A stretch of 13,145 nucleotides of DNA from the NCBI GenBank assembly GCA_015520245.1, contig WAQM01000164.1:1-13145 (forward strand). Direction: 5' to 3'. The translations under genes were made by a program, and so were the position numbers. The notes below the pieces were generated by a model that did no database searches, was not told the origin of the DNA, and saw nothing but the letters and a program-made list of their open reading frames with translations. This DNA is from Pyrodictiaceae archaeon. Its GTDB lineage: Archaea; Thermoproteota; Thermoprotei_A; Sulfolobales; Pyrodictiaceae. Below, one piece after another: positions 1-13,145 of the stretch (position 1 is the first letter of the stretch; the number at the start of each line of letters is the position of its first letter).

Positions 1-262
1 CAGGATAGCGTCGAGGCTGGGGCTGAGCAGTAGGGTTGAAACCCTAGCCCTAACCTTCACGAGGCTCCTCGCCAAGACGGGGCTGTCGCAGGGTAAGCCT
101 CCCCAGACGCTAGCGGCTGCGGCCGTCTACCTCGCAAGCATACTCATGGATGAGAAGAGGAACCAGTCCGAGGTAGCCAGGGTGGTCAACGTGAGCGACG
201 CCACTATAAGGAACCGCTACCGCGACATCGTGGACAACTTCTACATCGAGGTCTACCTGTGA
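1..262 (+). CDS. tfb: Transcription initiation factor B (TFB), C-terminal part, 5' end outside window
   Basis: TFB is the archaeal TFIIB homologue. It binds TBP on the TATA box, reads the BRE element upstream of it and recruits RNA polymerase. Only about 86 C-terminal residues are present, read in the frame starting at base 2 and ending in TGA at 260-262. They match the second cyclin-like repeat: a segment reading GLSQGKPPQTLAAAAVYLAS, then a helix-turn-helix whose second part reads VSDATIRNRYRDIVDN, which in the family holds the BRE-contacting recognition helix. The stop is 3 bp from the stop of the convergent endonuclease IV gene. Crenarchaea often carry more than one TFB, so which paralogue this is cannot be told. 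Family assignment is strong; the N-terminal zinc ribbon and first cyclin repeat are not visible. Confidence 0.92.
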   Translation, partial: RIASRLGLSSRVETLALTFTRLLAKTGLSQGKPPQTLAAAAVYLASILMDEKRNQSEVARVVNVSDATIRNRYRDIVDNFYIEVYL

Positions 263-265
263 CGA

Positions 266-1129
266 CTAGCAGTAGCCGTGCTCCTCGCAGCAAATCTTTT
301 TCATTACGACGGCGTCCTTGTCGAGGACCGGGCTCTCCGAGATGACTACGGCCTCGATGCCCAGCTGCTTGTAGGCCTCGCATACAAGGTGGAAGTCGGG
401 GCCGTAGCCCTCCTCTGAGAGGTTGTGGTGCTCCCTCTCCCCGCCCTCGCCGTACTCTATCTTGGAGAAGTGGGTGTGGAGGGGCTTGACCGCCCAGCTG
501 CCCAGCTCCTTCTCTATCCTCTCGACCGTCCTGACCACGTCGTCGAGCTTCACGACGAACTGCCCCTGGTACCTGGCGTAGAGGTGGGCCCAGTCGACCG
601 TCGGCCTGCAGTACTCGACCTCCCTGCATATCGCTATCACCTCGTCGACGTCGCCCACCTGGCTCCTCTTGCCCGTGGTCTCCGGCGACATCCAGACGCC
701 ACGTATGCCCCGCTGCCTCATCCACTCGGCCACGGGCCTCAGCGCGTCTACGACGCGGCGGAGCGCGTGCTCCCTGCTGGGGTTCCCCTTGTAGTAGCCC
801 GGGTGGAACACGACCGCGTAGGCCCCCATCCACGACGCGGCCTCGATGGCCGCCATCAGCCGCTCCTGGCTCTTCCTTACGGTACCCTCGTCCGTCGACG
901 CCAGGTTGATGTAGTAGGGGGCGTGCATGGACAGCACGACGCCGTGCCTCTCGGCGGCGAGCCGTATTTCGTACGCCTTCTTCTGGCTGATCCTGACGCC
1001 CCGGACCGCCTCGTACTCGAGCGCGTCCAGGCCCTCCTCTAGGGCTATGTACTCTATCGCCCTCACGTAGTCGGCGCCCTTAAGGTCGACGGGCTTGCCC
1101 GCCGGCCCGAAGCGTATGCGGCCCGGCAC
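266..1129 (-). CDS. nfo: Endonuclease IV (AP endonuclease family 2, TIM barrel)
   Basis: This is probably the abasic-site endonuclease of base excision repair, which cuts 5' of AP sites with a trinuclear zinc centre. The 287-residue length is normal for the family. Each metal ligand known from E. coli Nfo has a plausible counterpart: H69 in MHAPYYINLAS, H109 in VVFHPGYY, E150 in MSPETTG, D179 and H182 in VDWAHLY, H218 or H220 in LHTHFSK, D245 and H247 in PDFHLV, and E265 in ISESP. The family motif around H69 is especially clear. The gene starts at GTG; a palindromic TATA-like sequence lies about 33 bp upstream, which gives a short leader. It is convergent with TFB (3-bp gap) and divergent from the phospholipid-synthesis gene. 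Some archaeal members are annotated only as TIM-barrel sugar isomerase-like proteins, but the full ligand set favours the nuclease. Confidence 0.88.
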   Translation of the reverse strand: MPGRIRFGPAGKPVDLKGADYVRAIEYIALEEGLDALEYEAVRGVRISQKKAYEIRLAAERHGVVLSMHAPYYINLASTDEGTVRKSQERLMAAIEAASWMGAYAVVFHPGYYKGNPSREHALRRVVDALRPVAEWMRQRGIRGVWMSPETTGKRSQVGDVDEVIAICREVEYCRPTVDWAHLYARYQGQFVVKLDDVVRTVERIEKELGSWAVKPLHTHFSKIEYGEGGEREHHNLSEEGYGPDFHLVCEAYKQLGIEAVVISESPVLDKDAVVMKKICCEEHGYC

Positions 1130-1161
1130 GCCCCAGCCCGCACCCCCCTACGGCGGGGCTC

Positions 1162-3335: not shown

Positions 3336-4294
3336 GGGGCGCGGCGTAGCCCGACCTTCTCCAGGAGCTCGCAGGCCTTGCACAGCCTCCTGGTGGGCGA
3401 CGTTGGCGCCCCGCACCTGGCGCAGCGGGGGAGCTCGACCGGGCTCCTGGCGAGGGACCTCGCGGCCGGCTCCAGCAGCACGTCGAGTGCCTCCATCATC
3501 CGCAACAGGCTGCCCGGCCTGGACCCCTCGAGCCTGTACATGGCGAGCCTCGCCCTGAGCCTCAGCGTGGGCGCCTCGTAGAGGTACGGGCACTCCACGC
3601 TCTGGATTGGGTACCCTGAGCGGAACGCGTAGGCGGCGGTCTCCCACTCGTACACCTTCCTCAGCGGCTTCACCCTCGGCACGAAGTCCCTGGTTGCGAG
3701 CGCCGCAACCGGGTGCATGCGGACCAGCCCCACGTAGTCGCCCCGTAGGAGGTTCATCAGCGCCGTCTGGGCCTCGTCGTCGAGGTTGTGCGCGGTCACG
3801 ACCCTGTCGGCGCCGAGGAGCCTCGCCTGCTCCTCCATGATCCTCCTCCTCAGCACGCCGCAGAACGTGCACGGCTTCTCACCGACCCCGCGCCTCGAGG
3901 CCTCCCTGACCATCTCGGCCAGGGTGGCCCCGAAGTAGTCGCGGAAGCTGACGACTACGTGGTCTACGCCGTAGCTCCTGGCGTACCTGGAGATGGCCCT
4001 CGCCTCCTCGACGTGGTAGCCCCCGGGGATCCCCTCGATGATCGTGAGCGCCACCATGCGGCCGGTGTCGTGGATCTGCGACAGCACGTCCAGGAGCGTG
4101 AAGCTGTCCTTGCCCCCGCTCACGGCCAGCAGCAGGCGGTGGCCTGGCTCGAAGAGCCCCCAGCGTTTGACCTCGTTCCTCACCCTCTCGACGACCTGCC
4201 TGCGGAAGCACCTCCAGCACAGCCTTAGCCCCGTGTGCGGCTGCTTGATCTCAGCCCTCCCGCCCCCGCAGAGGCTGCAGGGCGGCAGGGTCAA
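3311..4294 (-). CDS. ttuA: tRNA 2-thiolation enzyme (TtuA/Ncs6/NcsA family)
   Basis: This enzyme adenylates a uridine in tRNA and replaces its 2-oxygen with sulfur. In thermophiles TtuA makes 2-thioribothymidine at position 54; Ncs6/Ctu1 relatives modify wobble U34. Visible in order: an N-terminal zinc finger (C6, C9, C26, C29), the PP-loop ATP site SGGKDS at 59-64, cysteines C142 and C145 (PCTFCG) and C235 that in characterised members hold a [4Fe-4S] cluster, and a C-terminal zinc finger (C291, C294, C305, C308). All key residues are present in 327 residues, the usual size. The start is TTG, 7 bp after the DUF211 stop, so the two genes are probably co-transcribed. U34 and U54 specificity cannot be separated by eye, so the symbol is provisional. 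Confidence 0.88.
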   Translation of the reverse strand: MTLPPCSLCGGGRAEIKQPHTGLRLCWRCFRRQVVERVRNEVKRWGLFEPGHRLLLAVSGGKDSFTLLDVLSQIHDTGRMVALTIIEGIPGGYHVEEARAISRYARSYGVDHVVVSFRDYFGATLAEMVREASRRGVGEKPCTFCGVLRRRIMEEQARLLGADRVVTAHNLDDEAQTALMNLLRGDYVGLVRMHPVAALATRDFVPRVKPLRKVYEWETAAYAFRSGYPIQSVECPYLYEAPTLRLRARLAMYRLEGSRPGSLLRMMEALDVLLEPAARSLARSPVELPRCARCGAPTSPTRRLCKACELLEKVGLRRAPQQTLQPG

Positions 4295-4640: not shown

Positions 4641-5150
4641 ATGTTCTCATCCCCGACCGGGGAGCGCTCCCAGCGCCGGAGGCCCCCTCCCGACCTGGAC
4701 GCGGTGGACGTTAAGCTGGTCCGGCTGCTGGCCGAGGACTCCAGGCTCAGCACGAGGGCCCTAGCCTCCAGGCTCGGCCTCGCCCACTCCACGGTCGGCT
4801 CGAGGCTGAGGAGGCTGCTCGAGCTCGGGGTCATCAGGAGGTTCACGGTCCTGGTGGACCACGAGGCGCTGGGCTACGAGGTCACAGCGCTCACGCTGAT
4901 ACAGGCCGAGGGGAGCCACATAGAGGAGCTGGAGAGGGAACTGTCGACGCACCCGAACATCGTAGCAGTCTACGACATCACGGGGGAGTTCGACGTGGCG
5001 GTCATAGCCAGGTTTAAGAGCATGAGGCAGCTCGACGCCTTCCTGAAGGCCGTGAACAAGCTCCCCTACGTCAGGAGGACGGTCACCAGCATCGTGCTCA
5101 GGGTCGTCAAGGAGGACCCCAACGCCCCCCTCCTGGCCGAGCCTTTATAA
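4641..5150 (+). CDS. Lrp/AsnC family transcriptional regulator
   Basis: This is a leucine-responsive-regulator-type protein of 169 residues. A basic, proline-rich N-terminus (1-17) precedes a winged helix-turn-helix at about 18-70 ([20 protein letters not shown], then [20 protein letters not shown] as the helix-turn-helix). A RAM ligand-binding/oligomerisation domain follows at about 80-155, with the conserved G-x-x-D turn in GEFDVAV (115-121). Such proteins sense amino acids or related small molecules and act as dimers or octamers. The start is ATG, 60 bp from the divergent DUF211 gene. The last three codons, including the TAA stop, overlap the TATA box for the eL13 gene. The ligand and target genes cannot be deduced. 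Confidence 0.9.
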
Positions 5151-6900: not shown

Positions 6901-6982
6901 CATGCACCACCTTACGGGTGGGGCACTGATTTAGCCCAGAACGATCACGCGGGTAGCGGGCAAGGACGGAGGCGGCGCCCGC

Positions 6983-7558
6983 GTGGCCCGCTACGAGGTG
7001 AGGTTCCACGGGCGCGGAGGCCAGGGGGCCGTCACGGCGGCCGAGCTGCTGGCCGAGGCGGCGATCGAGGAGGGGAAGTACGCGCTGGCGTTCCCGGAGT
7101 ACGGCGCCGAGCGGCGGGGAGCTCCGGTGCTGGCCTTCACGAGGATAGACGACGAGCCCATCCTCGAGAGGGAGCCGATACTGGAGCCGAACGTCGTCGT
7201 AGTCCTCGACCCCTCGCTGACCCCGGACATATACATGAGGGGGCTGAGGCCGGACGGCGCGCTCGTAGTGAACACGAAGAGGGGGGTGGACGAGCTGCGC
7301 AGGGCTATAGCGGAGGCGGGCTTCAGCCCCCCGCGCAGGCTCGCGGTGGTGGACGCGACCGACATAGCCCTGAAGGCCCTCGGCGCCCCTATAGTCAACA
7401 CGGCCATGCTCGGGGCCCTGGTGAGGGCGGTCGGGGTGGTGTCCCTGGAGACGCTTGTTAGGGTGGTCCACGCGAGGTTCGCGGAGAGGTCGCGCAGCCT
7501 GGCCGAGGCGAACGTTAAGGCCGTGCGTGAGGCCTACGAGGCCACCGTGGTGGGGTGA
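6983..7558 (+). CDS. porG: Pyruvate:ferredoxin oxidoreductase, gamma subunit
   Basis: This is the gamma subunit of the heterotetrameric 2-oxoacid:ferredoxin oxidoreductase, which converts pyruvate and CoA to acetyl-CoA and CO2 while reducing ferredoxin. The 191-residue protein opens with the family motif RFHGRGGQGAVTAAELLAEA (7-26), followed by FPEYGAERRGAPVLAFTRI, and later has VVVVLDPSL and NTAMLGAL, all hallmarks of the POR gamma domain. It lacks cysteine clusters, as expected. It is the first gene of the order gamma-delta-alpha-beta seen in archaea. The start is GTG, 6 bp separate its stop from porD, and the operon promoter probably lies between 6893 and 6950. Gamma subunits can be shared with the 2-ketoisovalerate enzyme, so substrate is not fixed by this subunit. 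Confidence 0.93.
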   Translation: MARYEVRFHGRGGQGAVTAAELLAEAAIEEGKYALAFPEYGAERRGAPVLAFTRIDDEPILEREPILEPNVVVVLDPSLTPDIYMRGLRPDGALVVNTKRGVDELRRAIAEAGFSPPRRLAVVDATDIALKALGAPIVNTAMLGALVRAVGVVSLETLVRVVHARFAERSRSLAEANVKAVREAYEATVVG

Positions 7559-7564
7559 GGCGCC

Positions 7565-7906
7565 GTGGAGCAGCTGAGGTACTCGAGGGTGCCGGAGCTC
7601 CGGGGGTGGCGCGACGTCCCCATCGCCGGCATAGTGCCGTGGCCCGGTAGCACGGCCGAGAACCGGATGCACGCGTGGAGGACGTTCCGCCCGGTGATAG
7701 ACCCCGAGAAGTGCGTTAGGTGCCGGCTGTGCTGGGTCTACTGCCCCGACGGGGCGATAGTCGAGCTCGACAAGCCCTACACGACGAGGAGCGGCAGGAC
7801 GTACAAGGTTACGTACGAGGTCAACTACGACTACTGCAAGGGCTGCGGCATATGCGCCAACGAGTGCCCGGTCAAGGCGATAAGGATGGTCCCCGAGGTG
7901 AGGTAG
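7565..7906 (+). CDS. porD: Pyruvate:ferredoxin oxidoreductase, delta subunit (2x[4Fe-4S])
   Basis: The 113-residue delta subunit is the ferredoxin-like electron relay of the complex. It has two [4Fe-4S] motifs, each C-x2-C-x2-C-x3-C-P: C50, C53, C56 and C60 in CVRCRLCWVYCP, and C91, C94, C97 and C101 in CKGCGICANECP. The N-terminal extension of about 40 residues (with IPW-type segment GIVPWPGST) is typical of the subunit and packs against the others. The start is GTG, preceded by GTGAGG as a ribosome-binding site. The next gene, porA, begins 1 bp after its stop, indicating tight translational coupling. Electrons pass from the proximal cluster in the beta subunit through these two clusters to ferredoxin. 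Confidence 0.93.
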   Translation: MEQLRYSRVPELRGWRDVPIAGIVPWPGSTAENRMHAWRTFRPVIDPEKCVRCRLCWVYCPDGAIVELDKPYTTRSGRTYKVTYEVNYDYCKGCGICANECPVKAIRMVPEVR

Positions 7907-7907
7907 C

Positions 7908-9137
7908 GTGGCGGCCAGGGCGGAGGTCGTGAGGGAGCGGCCCCCCCGGGGCCAGGAGAGGGTGTCGGCCACCGGTAACTACGCGGCAGCCTACGCGGCC
8001 CGCGACGCCGACGTGGATGTCGTCGCGGTCTACCCCATAACCCCGCAGGTGCAGATAGCCGAGAAGCTCGCGGAGATGATAGCCAACGGGGAGCTCGACG
8101 CCGAGATGATACACGTCGAGAGCGAGCACTCGGCGATGAGCGCGGTGATAGCGGCCGCGGCGACAGGGGCGCGCGCGTTCACCGCCACCTCCTCGCAGGG
8201 GCTCGAGCTCATGCACGAGATGCTGTGGATAGCGGCCGGCCTGCGCCAGCCGGTGGTCATGGCCGTCGCGACGAGGGCTCTCAGCGCCCCCATAAACATC
8301 TGGAACGACTACACCGACGTCATGAGCGCCCGCGACACCGGCTGGATCATAATCTTCAGTGAGAACGTGCAGGAGGTATACGACAACGTCGTCCAGGCGT
8401 TCCGGATAGCGGAGCACCCGGACGTGCTGCTGCCCGTGATGGTCGCGCTCGACGGCTACATACTAAGCCACACGGTCGAGCCAATGTACCGCATACCGCA
8501 GGACGAGGTGCTGAGCTACGCGCCCAAGAGGCCCCGCGGCTACAGGCCGGTGCTGGACCCCGACAGGCCGGTGACGATGGGCGTGCTGGCCGCCCCCAAC
8601 TGGTACTACGAGATCAAGAGGCAGCAGGCCGAGGCGCTAAGGGAGTCCAAGAAGGTCGTGCGCGAGGCCGGCAGGGAGTTCGGCAAGCGGTTCGGCAGGT
8701 ACTACGACCTGCTCGAGCCGTTCATGTTAGACGACGCCGAGTACGTGATGGTGAGCATGGGGGCCACGGCGAGCCTCGTCAAGGCGGCTGTCAAGAGGCT
8801 GAGGAGGGAGGGCGTCAAGGTGGGGGCGGTCAAGGTCAGGGTGTACAGGCCGTTCCCGGCCGACGAGCTGGCGGAGATGCTCCAGCACGCGAAGGCGGTT
8901 GGCGTGCTCGACAGAGCGATAGCGTTCGGGGGGCCCACCGAGGGCCCGCTCTTCGCCGACGTAGCGGTATCGCTGGCCACGAGGGGGGTGCACGTGCCCA
9001 TGGTCAGCTTCGTCCACGGCCTCGGGGGCCGCGACATATTCGTGAGGGACGTCGTCGAGATGTTCAGGATACTGGCCGACTACGCGCGCAAGGGCAGGAG
9101 CGCGACCACAACGATATTCTTCGGCGTGCGCGAGTAG
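7908..9137 (+). CDS. porA: Pyruvate:ferredoxin oxidoreductase, alpha subunit
   Basis: The 409-residue alpha subunit forms the active site together with beta and holds the pyrimidine-binding part of the thiamine pyrophosphate site. Visible signatures are VYPITPQ (41-47), the conserved acidic position in HVESEHSA (E72), FTATSSQGLELMHEML (91-106) and the pyruvate-type signature TRALSAPINIWNDYTDVMSA with ARDTGW (141-146). The C-terminal third (from about 275, VMVSMGATASLVKAAVKRL) is the transketolase C-terminal-like domain. The pattern favours pyruvate over branched-chain oxoacids, but assay would decide. The start is GTG with a GGTGAGG ribosome-binding site 5-6 nt upstream. About 20 N-terminal residues before VSATGNYAAAYA are poorly conserved. 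Confidence 0.93.
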   Translation: MAARAEVVRERPPRGQERVSATGNYAAAYAARDADVDVVAVYPITPQVQIAEKLAEMIANGELDAEMIHVESEHSAMSAVIAAAATGARAFTATSSQGLELMHEMLWIAAGLRQPVVMAVATRALSAPINIWNDYTDVMSARDTGWIIIFSENVQEVYDNVVQAFRIAEHPDVLLPVMVALDGYILSHTVEPMYRIPQDEVLSYAPKRPRGYRPVLDPDRPVTMGVLAAPNWYYEIKRQQAEALRESKKVVREAGREFGKRFGRYYDLLEPFMLDDAEYVMVSMGATASLVKAAVKRLRREGVKVGAVKVRVYRPFPADELAEMLQHAKAVGVLDRAIAFGGPTEGPLFADVAVSLATRGVHVPMVSFVHGLGGRDIFVRDVVEMFRILADYARKGRSATTTIFFGVRE

Positions 9138-9153
9138 CGGGGGTGGGGCGGCC

Positions 9154-10107
9154 GTGGCGCTTACCAGGCCCGTGAGGACCGTGTGGGACATACCGCGCGA
9201 GGAGAGGTTCGCGCCGGGCCATGCCATGTGCCAGGGCTGCGGCGCGGCCATAATAATGAGGCACCTCATGAAGGTCGTGGGCAAGGACGCGATAATCGTC
9301 ATGGCTACGGGCTGCGTCGAGGTCACGACGACGCTGTTCCCGCGCACGTCGTGGCTTAACCCGTGGCTACACCTAGCCTTCGAGAACGCGGGCGCGGCCG
9401 CCAGCGGCGTCGAGGCCGCGCTTAAGGTGCTGAGGAGGAAGGGGGTCATCGACGGCAGCAGGAGGGTGAAGGTCGTCGCCATAGCGGGGGACGGCGGCAG
9501 CTTCGACATAGGCCTCCAGAGCCTCAGCGGCATGCTGGAGCGCGGCCACGACGTGATGTTCGTGGTCTACGACAACGAGGCCTACATGAACACCGGCATC
9601 CAGAGGAGCAGCGCGACGCCGTACGGCGCATGGACCACTACGACGCCGGTCGGGAAGAGGTGGAGGGGCGAGTGGAGGCCCAAGAAGGACATAATAGGCA
9701 TAGCGCTGGCCCACCGCATCCCCTACGTGGCGACGGCGAACCCCGCCTACCCGACCGACATGGTCGAGAAGTTCCGCAGGGCCTTCGAGATCGAGGGGCC
9801 CAGCCTCGTCCACGTGCTATCGCCCTGCACGCCGGGGTGGAGGATACCCACGGAGAAGACCATAGAGGTCGCGAGGCTGGCGGTGCAGACCGGCGTCTGG
9901 GTCCTGCTGGAGGTGGTCAACGGGAGGCCCCGGGTGACGGTCAAGGTGCCGAGGAGGAAGCACGTCCGCCACTACCTAAGGCTCCAGGGCAGGTTCCGCC
10001 ACCTCACGGACGAGGAGATCGAGAGGATACAGAAGATGGTGGACCAGTACGTCGAGGAGATAAACAGGTGGGTGGGCGAGCAGGCTATAGGCCCCGTGGC
10101 GGAGTAG
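9154..10107 (+). CDS. porB: Pyruvate:ferredoxin oxidoreductase, beta subunit
   Basis: The 317-residue beta subunit binds the diphosphate of thiamine pyrophosphate and the proximal [4Fe-4S] cluster. Cluster ligands are C26 and C29 (AMCQGCGAA), C54 (ATGCVEV) and C225 (SPCTPGW). The TPP/Mg motif is GDGGSFDIG (112-120) through DNEAYMNTGIQ (140-150), matching the GDG...N pattern. The segments GHAMCQGCG and YDNEAYMNTG are diagnostic for POR beta. The start is GTG, 16 bp after porA, and the GPN-loop GTPase gene starts 1 bp after its stop. The C-terminal 45 residues (LRLQGRFRHLTDEEIERIQK onward) form a helical tail seen in archaeal members. Confidence 0.94.
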   Translation: MALTRPVRTVWDIPREERFAPGHAMCQGCGAAIIMRHLMKVVGKDAIIVMATGCVEVTTTLFPRTSWLNPWLHLAFENAGAAASGVEAALKVLRRKGVIDGSRRVKVVAIAGDGGSFDIGLQSLSGMLERGHDVMFVVYDNEAYMNTGIQRSSATPYGAWTTTTPVGKRWRGEWRPKKDIIGIALAHRIPYVATANPAYPTDMVEKFRRAFEIEGPSLVHVLSPCTPGWRIPTEKTIEVARLAVQTGVWVLLEVVNGRPRVTVKVPRRKHVRHYLRLQGRFRHLTDEEIERIQKMVDQYVEEINRWVGEQAIGPVAE

Positions 10108-10108
10108 G

Positions 10109-10918
10109 GTGCCGCAAGGCATGTACTTCGTCGTTTTTGTGGGGCCCGCCGGCAGCGGCAAGAGCCACCTGGTGGACGCCTTCGGCGACTGGCTCGAGTT
10201 CAACGAGCTGACCGCGATCCGCGTCAACCTCGACCCAGCCGCCGACTGGCTCCCCTACCAGCCCGACGTCGACGTCCGCGACTACGTGAACGCGCGGGAC
10301 GTCATGGAGAAGTACAAGCTGGGGCCCAACGGCGCCCTCGTCGCCTCCGTCGACATGATAGCAGACTACGCCGACAAGATCCGCGAGGACATCGAGAGCT
10401 TCAGGCCGAACTACGTCCTAGTGGACACGCCGGGCCAGATGGAGCTCTTCGCGTTCCGTGAGAGCGGGCCGGAGGTGCTGAGGATGATCATAGGCGACTC
10501 CAGGGCCGTCGCGGTGTTCCTCATCGACGCCGTCTTCGCCTCGAGGCCCGCGAGCCTGGCGTCCAGCCTCTTCCTCGCCTTCTCGACAAGGCTCCGCCTC
10601 GGCCTCCCCCAGGTGGTGGTGGTCTCCAAGGCCGACCTGCTGGACGAGAGCACAATGAACGAGATAGACGAGATGATGAGGGACCCCAGCATGTTCTACG
10701 GGAGGCTCGTGGACGCGGGTCTCGACCCCATGTTCGCCGAGGCGGTCGCCAAGGCCGTCGAGGCCCTCCTGCCCTCGGACTCCTCGAGCGCGACCGTCGT
10801 AACCCGCTTCGTCTCGGCGGTCTCCGGCTTCGGCCTCGACGACCTCTACGCGGTCGTCCAGCAGGTGCTGGCGGGCGGGGAGGACTTCTACACGGAGGAG
10901 CCAAACCCGAGGCTGTAG
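10109..10918 (+). CDS. GPN-loop GTPase
   Basis: This 269-residue protein belongs to the GPN-loop GTPases, homodimeric in archaea (Pyrococcus PAB0955) and related to eukaryotic Gpn1-3, which help assemble or import RNA polymerase II. The P-loop is GPAGSGKS (12-19), the family-defining Gly-Pro-Asn insert is LGPNGALV (71-78), the G3 motif is DTPGQMELF (106-114) and the G4 motif is VSKADLL (172-178). All catalytic elements are present. The GTG start is 1 bp after the porB stop; an ATG four codons later (MYFVVFVGPAG) is equally plausible. It is the last gene of the por transcript, although no metabolic link is known. The archaeal role is not settled. Confidence 0.92.
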   Translation: MPQGMYFVVFVGPAGSGKSHLVDAFGDWLEFNELTAIRVNLDPAADWLPYQPDVDVRDYVNARDVMEKYKLGPNGALVASVDMIADYADKIREDIESFRPNYVLVDTPGQMELFAFRESGPEVLRMIIGDSRAVAVFLIDAVFASRPASLASSLFLAFSTRLRLGLPQVVVVSKADLLDESTMNEIDEMMRDPSMFYGRLVDAGLDPMFAEAVAKAVEALLPSDSSSATVVTRFVSAVSGFGLDDLYAVVQQVLAGGEDFYTEEPNPRL

Positions 10919-11719: not shown

Positions 11720-12907
11720 GTGGAGCCCCGAGGTGCTGGGCCGGCCGGGTACGGGGAATGGGGCGGCATGGCGTGCCCGCACGCTGAGAGACGGGGCCCC
11801 GTGGTCTACTGCGCCGTGGCAGCCAGGACCGTGAACCCCTTCGTCATGCCGTGCCTTAGCGCGAGGTACGTCAGGTGCAGGTTCTACGCCGAGGCCGAGC
11901 GGAGGGCCAGGGAGGAGGCGGCCGCCCGGCCGCAGGCGGCCGCGGAGGCGCCCGCGGCCGAGGCGGAGGCCGCGGCGAGGCCGGCGGCTGAGCAGCCCTC
12001 GCCCGCGCCGGTGGCCGTGGAGGTAAGGACGGTGGGGGCACCGGAGGAGGCGGCCGTGCAGGCGCCGGCCCCCGCGGCCGAGGAGGAGAGGGCGGCGGAG
12101 GAGCGACCCTCGTGGAGCTTGGAGGAGTCCGAGAAGCTGCTCGACCCGACCTACGTCGCCCCGGTGATACTCCGGGCGCCCATAGCGCTGAGGCGCGTCG
12201 TGACGGTCGAGGGCGTAGACGACCTGGTCGGCAAGGTGCTGGAGGGGCTCGAGGGCTGGAGGGACGGCTGCTTCCTGGTCGACGCCGCCACGATAATGTC
12301 CAAGTGGCTTGGCGAGGCCGAGAAGAAGGTCAAGCTGCTCTTCCGGAAGGCCAGGGAGGTCGCGAGGAGCGGCAAGCCGGCCATCATATTCATCGACGAG
12401 ATAGACGCGCTGCTGGGGGTGTACGACGCGGAGGTTGGGGGTGAGGCGAGGGTCCGGAACCAGTTCCTCAAGGAGATGGACGGGCTGCAGGACAAGTCGA
12501 ACACCCTGCACGTCTACGTGATAGGCGCGACCAACAAGCCGTGGAGGCTCGACGAGCCTTTCATACGCAGGTTCCAGAAGAGGATATACATACCGCCCCC
12601 CGACTTCAGGGCCAGGCTGGAGATATTCAAGATGTACACGAGGAAGCTCAAGCTGGCGCCCGACGTCGACCTTGAGGAGCTGGCCAGGATAACCGAGGGC
12701 TACAGCGCGAGCGACATAAAGGACATAGTCATGGAGGCCCACCTGAGGACCGTGAGGGAGCTCTTCGAGAAGAACGGCGGGGTCGGCGAGCCGAGGCCGA
12801 TAACGATGGAGGACTTCATCGAGGCGATAAAGTCGAGGAAGCCCAGCATCACGCCGGAGATGGTCGAGGCCTACAGGAGGTGGTTCGAAAAGTTCAGAGC
12901 AGTCTAG
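11720..12907 (+). CDS. Chimeric reading frame: four-Cys protein N-terminus fused to CdvC/Vps4 AAA core lacking the P-loop
   Basis: The 395-residue frame joins two unrelated parts. Residues 1-57 hold four cysteines (C19, C31, C45, C53) in a probable zinc site; 58-130 are an Ala/Pro/Glu-rich linker; 131-189 run through [20 protein letters not shown] to FLVDA, which I do not recognise. From A190 ([16 protein letters not shown]) the sequence is the AAA core of crenarchaeal CdvC (Vps4), the ATPase that disassembles ESCRT-III-like CdvB filaments in cell division. It has Walker B IIFIDEID (222-229), sensor 1 in VIGATN (267-272), arginine fingers R283 and R284, GYSASDI and the C-terminal helix. The MIT domain and Walker A are missing, so ATP binding should fail. 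The junction coincides with an inverted repeat, so the fusion is probably not a natural gene. The ATG at 11768 (MACPH) may be the true start. Confidence 0.75.
12206..12285 (+). repeat. 80-bp perfect inverted repeat, left copy
   Basis: These 80 bases recur without mismatch as the reverse complement of 13066-13145; I compared them base by base. Identity stops at 12286, where this copy has C and the other has G, and on the other side is cut off by the window edge, so the true length is unknown. The copy encodes the stretch from VEGVDD to FLVDA and ends just after the palindrome GTCGAC (12278-12283). The two copies are separated by 780 bp. Confidence 0.95.
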
Positions 12908-12914
12908 CTGCCCC

Positions 12915-13145
12915 TCACTCGCTCAAAGGCCCGTAGACCGTGACCCGCAGCGTGCCCCGGACCTTGTCGTCCAGCTCCTCGGGGGCGACCACCGACGTCC
13001 TCGTCGCGGATGCGACGAGCGTGCCCCGGCAGAACTTCATGTAGACGGTCACGGCCCCGCTCGACGCGTCGACCAGGAAGCAGCCGTCCCTCCAGCCCTC
13101 GAGCCCCTCCAGCACCTTGCCGACCAGGTCGTCTACGCCCTCGAC
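12915..13145 (-). CDS. C-terminal part of an unrecognised protein; probably the displaced end of the four-Cys protein
   Basis: The minus-strand frame is open from the window edge to a TGA at 12915-12917. It begins within the inverted repeat ([18 protein letters not shown]), then continues after FLVDA with 49 residues not found elsewhere in the window: SSGAVTVYMKFCRGTLVASA, then TSVVAPEELDDKV, and finally GTLRVTVYGPLSE. This looks like a beta-rich end of a small domain. Joined to residues 1-189 of the plus-strand frame it would make a coherent protein of about 238 residues, which I think is the native form. The gap to the convergent CdvC stop is 7 bp, as tight as other convergent pairs here. 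There is no recognisable function; one cysteine is present. The true 5' end lies outside the window. Confidence 0.65.
   Translation of the reverse strand, partial: VEGVDDLVGKVLEGLEGWRDGCFLVDASSGAVTVYMKFCRGTLVASATRTSVVAPEELDDKVRGTLRVTVYGPLSE
13066..13145 (-). repeat. 80-bp perfect inverted repeat, right copy, running off the window
   Basis: This is the reverse complement of 12206-12285 with no mismatch up to the last base of the window. In a fold-back structure the identity would continue beyond the edge into a copy of 12205 and leftwards; in a bounded repeat it would end soon after. Confidence 0.95.

Follow-up and report, generated by a model that had tools for sequence, protein, structure and literature searches.

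An exact inverted repeat at the end of a Pyrodictiaceae-related contig: probable fold-back chimera joining gene X to part of cdvC

Introduction

An archaeal contig of 13,145 bases closes with one copy of an exact 80-nt inverted repeat, the other copy of which lies 780 nt upstream within coding sequence. The question raised by this locus is whether the repeat belongs to the genome of the archaeon or arose in the handling of its DNA. The window analysed here is the entire contig (C164), which belongs to an assembly of 1,081,757 bases in 240 contigs with an estimated completeness of 76.49%. Judged from the relatives of its CdvC protein, the genome is one that belongs near Pyrodictiaceae; the four named loci nearest to the C164 CdvC are labelled Pyrodictiaceae archaeon and are 82-85% identical to it. 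The repeat is very probably a technical product, namely an in vitro fold-back chimera that was carried into the assembly and is absent from the genome of the archaeon. This reading, also favoured in the first-pass annotation, is supported because unrelated genes are fused exactly at 12285/12286, because intact versions of both genes exist in a near-identical organism, and because five more contigs, out of 51 others, end in fold-backs.

The repeat and the contig end

A repeat search of the window confirmed that the two arms are 100% complementary over all 80 nt and are separated by a 780-nt spacer (Table 1); the second-longest inverted pair listed by the same search measures 34 nt at 74%. The expected number of exact 80-base inverted matches in 13 kb is approximately 13145 squared / 2 x 4^-80, i.e., of the order of 1e-41, an estimate that assumes equal base frequencies and would be higher, though still irrelevant, for a GC-rich composition. 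As described earlier, each arm falls within coding sequence, and their inner ends are located two bases past the palindrome GTCGAC. The second copy had been thought to run off the edge of the window; the arm does stop there, but that edge is the end of the contig itself, and the right arm stops at 13145 because the window is the complete contig and the assembly ends at that point.

Table 1. Features of the window and terminal inverted repeats of sampled contigs
Feature	Contig	Coordinates	Strand	Repeat	Loop	Basis
Gene X, 5' part, ~172 residues of 222	C164	11768..12285	+			ORF list; match to P0001
Left arm, exact inverted repeat, genuine gene X sequence	C164	12206..12285	+	80 nt	780	Repeat search; colinear with P0001, P0003, P0004
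GTCGACGC at the false junction, probable microhomology	C164	12278..12285	+			Sequence; P0005 and P0001 residues
cdvC/Vps4, 3' part, 207 residues and stop	C164	12284..12907	+			Pfam, PDB alignment, P0005 identity
Gene X, 3' part with stop codon; continues into gene X as reverse complement	C164	12915..13145	-			Translation; colinear across the junction with P0001, P0003, P0004
Right arm, gene X piece of the left arm read back, truncated by the contig end	C164	13066..13145	-	80 nt	780	Repeat search; contig size 13145
Terminal repeat	C20 (L164)	1-1134		131 nt, followed after one mismatch by 48 more	872	
Terminal repeat	C159 (L169)	4011-4160		64 nt	22	
Terminal repeat	C161 (L171)	4915-5016		43 nt	16	
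Terminal repeat	C36 (L220)	6955-7115		32 nt	97	
Terminal repeat	C81 (L185)	1-67		18 nt	31	

Genes joined at 12285/12286

The plus-strand open reading frame at 11720-12907 consists of two unrelated proteins: gene X, whose open frame reaches upstream to 11720, followed from about residue 184 by CdvC/Vps4. In a Pfam scan that covered four open reading frames of the window, the CdvC piece matched positions 27-130 of the 131 positions of the AAA profile as well as AAA_lid_3 and Vps4_C, and showed neither the MIT domain nor the Walker A motif. CdvC structures align with the frame from query residues 182-186 onward (PDB 4lcb, E 3.5e-89, from residue 184; PDB 4lgm, 2.5e-88, from residue 182). Thus, the piece can be aligned with the CdvC/Vps4 AAA ATPases over almost its full length, whereas the N-terminal half of the enzyme is absent from C164, most simply owing to the false join. 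The protein collection contains an intact CdvC of 371 residues (P0005), with an MIT domain and a full AAA domain, that is identical to the piece at 207/207 positions. It also holds the fused X-CdvC protein (P0002, 379 aa), the product of C164 itself, as indicated by its contig size of 13145.

Gene X begins with a cysteine-rich segment (CP.AE.RG..V.C...VNPF.MPC...Y.RC), followed by an Ala/Pro-rich linker and a C-terminal domain; its full-length counterpart P0001 has no Pfam match at E 0.001. On the minus strand, translation from 13145 to 12915 starts with the residues that end the X part and then diverges up to a stop codon. When the two X pieces are joined in silico, the composite is identical to P0001 (222 residues) at 221/222 positions in the protein collection search, and the sole difference, at codon 12161 (P versus S), lies outside the arms. 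The 3' part of gene X and the cdvC piece are convergent, with 7 bases between them. Most simply, these translations mean that the minus strand holds the true continuation of gene X, the passage into cdvC at 12285/12286 being false. Consistent with this, the alignments of the X family and of the CdvC family both pass straight through the false junction: CdvC is whole in P0005, P0006, and P0007, X is colinear in P0001, P0003, and P0004, and at the junction gene X (P0001) reads CFLVDASSGAV and intact CdvC (P0005) reads FFNVDAATIM. A genuine X-CdvC fusion gene was also considered and was rejected, as the near-identical organism has intact versions of both proteins on record.

The locus in related organisms

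P0001 and P0005 share the same listed longest contig of 8664 bases, and two further X/CdvC pairs have a longest contig in common (P0004/P0006 at 227879 and P0003/P0007 at 100064). From these shared figures, gene X apparently adjoins cdvC on three contigs. For the 8664-base contig, we infer the linkage and convergence of X and cdvC from the equal figures; P0005 is listed from ncbi and ena and P0001 with no source given. Based on the protein matches, the native locus would comprise gene X, 7 bases, and cdvC in the opposite direction, without a repeat.

Of 13 loci of the CdvC family, seven are on the forward strand, and each of these has Walker A and MIT-side sequence ahead of the position of the junction. 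In 33 of 38 relatives, the open frame that contains the best CdvC match measures 370-430 aa, and in another relative it measures 598 aa; the remaining four have only weaker, paralogue-like matches. A search of 109 loci from relatives, with flanks of up to 1.5 or 10 kb, yielded no gene X next to cdvC; as X diverges fast, misses are likely. Where a relative possesses an X-like gene, it lies far from cdvC, the exception being G034, in which a weak X match with a stop is located ~10 kb from cdvC. In a BLASTP comparison of the C-terminal domain of X with relative L135, 28 residues were aligned, all of them before the junction. As for the genes upstream of X, the open frame at 7565-7906 alone gave matches near cdvC in the loci of relatives, and these were weak and confined to three loci. 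A search of the genome's own contigs for the 5' half of cdvC gave no match; among the contigs sampled, those shorter than 3 kb read as N.

Survey of contig ends

To place the repeat in the context of its assembly, 80 of the 239 other contigs were sampled; 29 of these read as N (22 among the first 60 sampled and 7 among the rest), which left 51 for examination in addition to the window. Counting the window, 6/52 readable contigs have an exact inverted repeat, 18 nt or longer, that touches a contig end (Table 1). Across these 52 contigs (285 kb), inverted repeats of 24 nt or more are otherwise limited to the continuation of the 131-nt repeat. Among 45 control contigs from other genomes (16 readable of 20 from G002, 7 readable of 20 from G018, plus 22 complete contigs from the named loci), none had a terminal inverted repeat of at least 15 nt. 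With the window left out, the difference is modest (5/51 versus 0/45; Fisher one-sided p 0.038). Away from the contig ends, the controls gave two hits: L237 has a palindrome of 24 nt, and L101 has a 67-base hit that overlaps itself and may be a run of N.

The repeats of C20, C159, and C161 are located within or adjacent to open frames in which RIO1, Hydantoinase_A, and SIS domains were identified. A domain search of the open frames of C36 gave no match, and the single domain match in C81 lies in an open frame away from the repeat. The fold-back of C159 totals exactly 150 bases, which could equal one read length. Moreover, some contig ends duplicate part of another contig (the right end of L184 and L179, 105 bases; the right end of L164 and L185, 50 bases; the right end of L176 and L174, 47 bases), which likewise points to ends that are chimeric or redundant.

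Proposed mechanism

The 80-nt inverted repeat is most likely a by-product of the false join at 12285/12286. Both gene X and cdvC encode Val-Asp-Ala at the junction, and therefore the two genes can share up to 8 bases in the same direction (GTCGACGC), 6 of the 8 positions being fixed by the genetic code; this estimate derives from the protein residues. During in vitro copying, a strand made along gene X would halt at GTCGACGC and re-anneal to the opposite strand some 780 bases further downstream, at the Val-Asp-Ala codons of cdvC. Its extension would then run back through the 3' half of cdvC and the 3' end of gene X, and subsequently through gene X in reverse. The assembler presumably followed this chimeric join and halted 80 bases after re-entry into gene X, a halt that would account for the apparent exact inverted repeat. 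The palindrome GTCGAC had been proposed as the microhomology for template switching. That proposal is probably off the mark, since the two genes can share up to GTCGACGC in the same direction and the palindrome as such need not matter.

Inverted chimeras of this kind are known from multiple displacement amplification (MDA) with phi29 polymerase. In Lasken and Stockwell 2007 (PMC1855051), inverted chimeras are the main chimera type in single-cell MDA (406 of 475), chimera partners tend to lie within 10 kb of each other, and 76.8% of the junctions have 2-21 complementary bases. The same paper argues that self-primed hairpins are no major route in MDA; a downstream partner is compatible with the MDA model and incompatible with hairpin self-priming. 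C164 resembles these chimeras in several respects. It likewise joins a segment to an inverted downstream one less than 10 kb away, the 5' part of X being linked to cdvC read back towards X, where the nearness of X and cdvC is judged from 12286-13145 of the contig and from the equal longest-contig figures. Its junction likewise possibly shares a few bases, and fold-backs recur within one data set, at unrelated places of the assembly. In contrast, the published chimeras were seen in reads and the present one is seen in an assembled contig; moreover, some other contigs of this assembly have very short loops instead.

The chimera most probably stems from a presumed whole-genome amplification by strand displacement, starting from little DNA or from a single cell. 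A different in vitro source of fold-backs is possible, because the short-loop fold-backs of other contigs resemble self-primed hairpins. PMC13141652 and PMC9484634 describe palindromic or fold-back chimeric reads obtained with ligation libraries or with T7-replisome amplification, which are in vitro inverted-repeat chimeras too; they involve other enzymes and platforms and are indistinguishable here from the case of C164.

Alternative explanations

The repeat might instead have been generated by the assembler alone, through a fixed-length overlap in its graph and with no chimeric molecule involved. Graph assemblers leave overlaps of length k at contig ends, and the right arm does end exactly at the contig end. 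Nevertheless, the sizes of the arms vary across the assembly (131, 80, 64, 43, 32, 18), for which reason a fixed k-mer overlap was rejected as the sole cause, and the joining of two genes with at most 8 common bases at the junction would require some read that spans it. An origin in the assembler is thus very unlikely.

Less probable still is a real fold-back inverted duplication, formed in vivo by a replication template switch in the cell or in a subpopulation, with an intact copy elsewhere. The contig alone cannot separate an event in vivo from one in vitro, and an intact cdvC could be hidden, given that the sampled contigs below 3 kb read as N. On the other hand, the fold-backs that end five further contigs of 51 are unrelated to one another, and so many point to the method. 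It is highly improbable that, alongside intact copies, a subpopulation carries an inverted duplication in which half of cdvC is fused to gene X.

The least credible reading, and one that the first-pass annotation had offered as its alternative, is a genuine 780-bp segment flipped by a recombinase between the 80-bp repeats: the repeat is exact and the spacing plausible, but cdvC would be broken in either orientation, long inverted repeats in the contigs sampled occupy contig ends, inversion at the short junction would place the 5' half of CdvC at the right, where 72 more bases of gene X are found instead, and the near-identical organism, a different individual or strain compared through its proteins, does not have the repeat at both ends of the locus: its intact CdvC (P0005) has no gene X fragment before the second half, so that the second arm is absent there.

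Significance and neighbouring genes

The in vitro fold-back chimera is most likely an ordinary artefact of a kind that is well known, and its significance is limited to caution: the repeat of C164 would be no real biological feature, yet P0002 stands in the protein collection as though it were a real gene product. As further contig ends of the assembly are fold-backs, inverted repeats and gene fusions found there are not to be taken for biology.

Upstream of gene X, the window contains an operon-like run of genes at 6983-10918, which we take to resemble a 2-oxoacid:acceptor oxidoreductase with the order gamma, delta, alpha, beta. The last oxidoreductase-like open frame of the run has a TPP_enzyme_C match and is followed by an ATP_bind_1 protein, presumably of the GPN-loop type.
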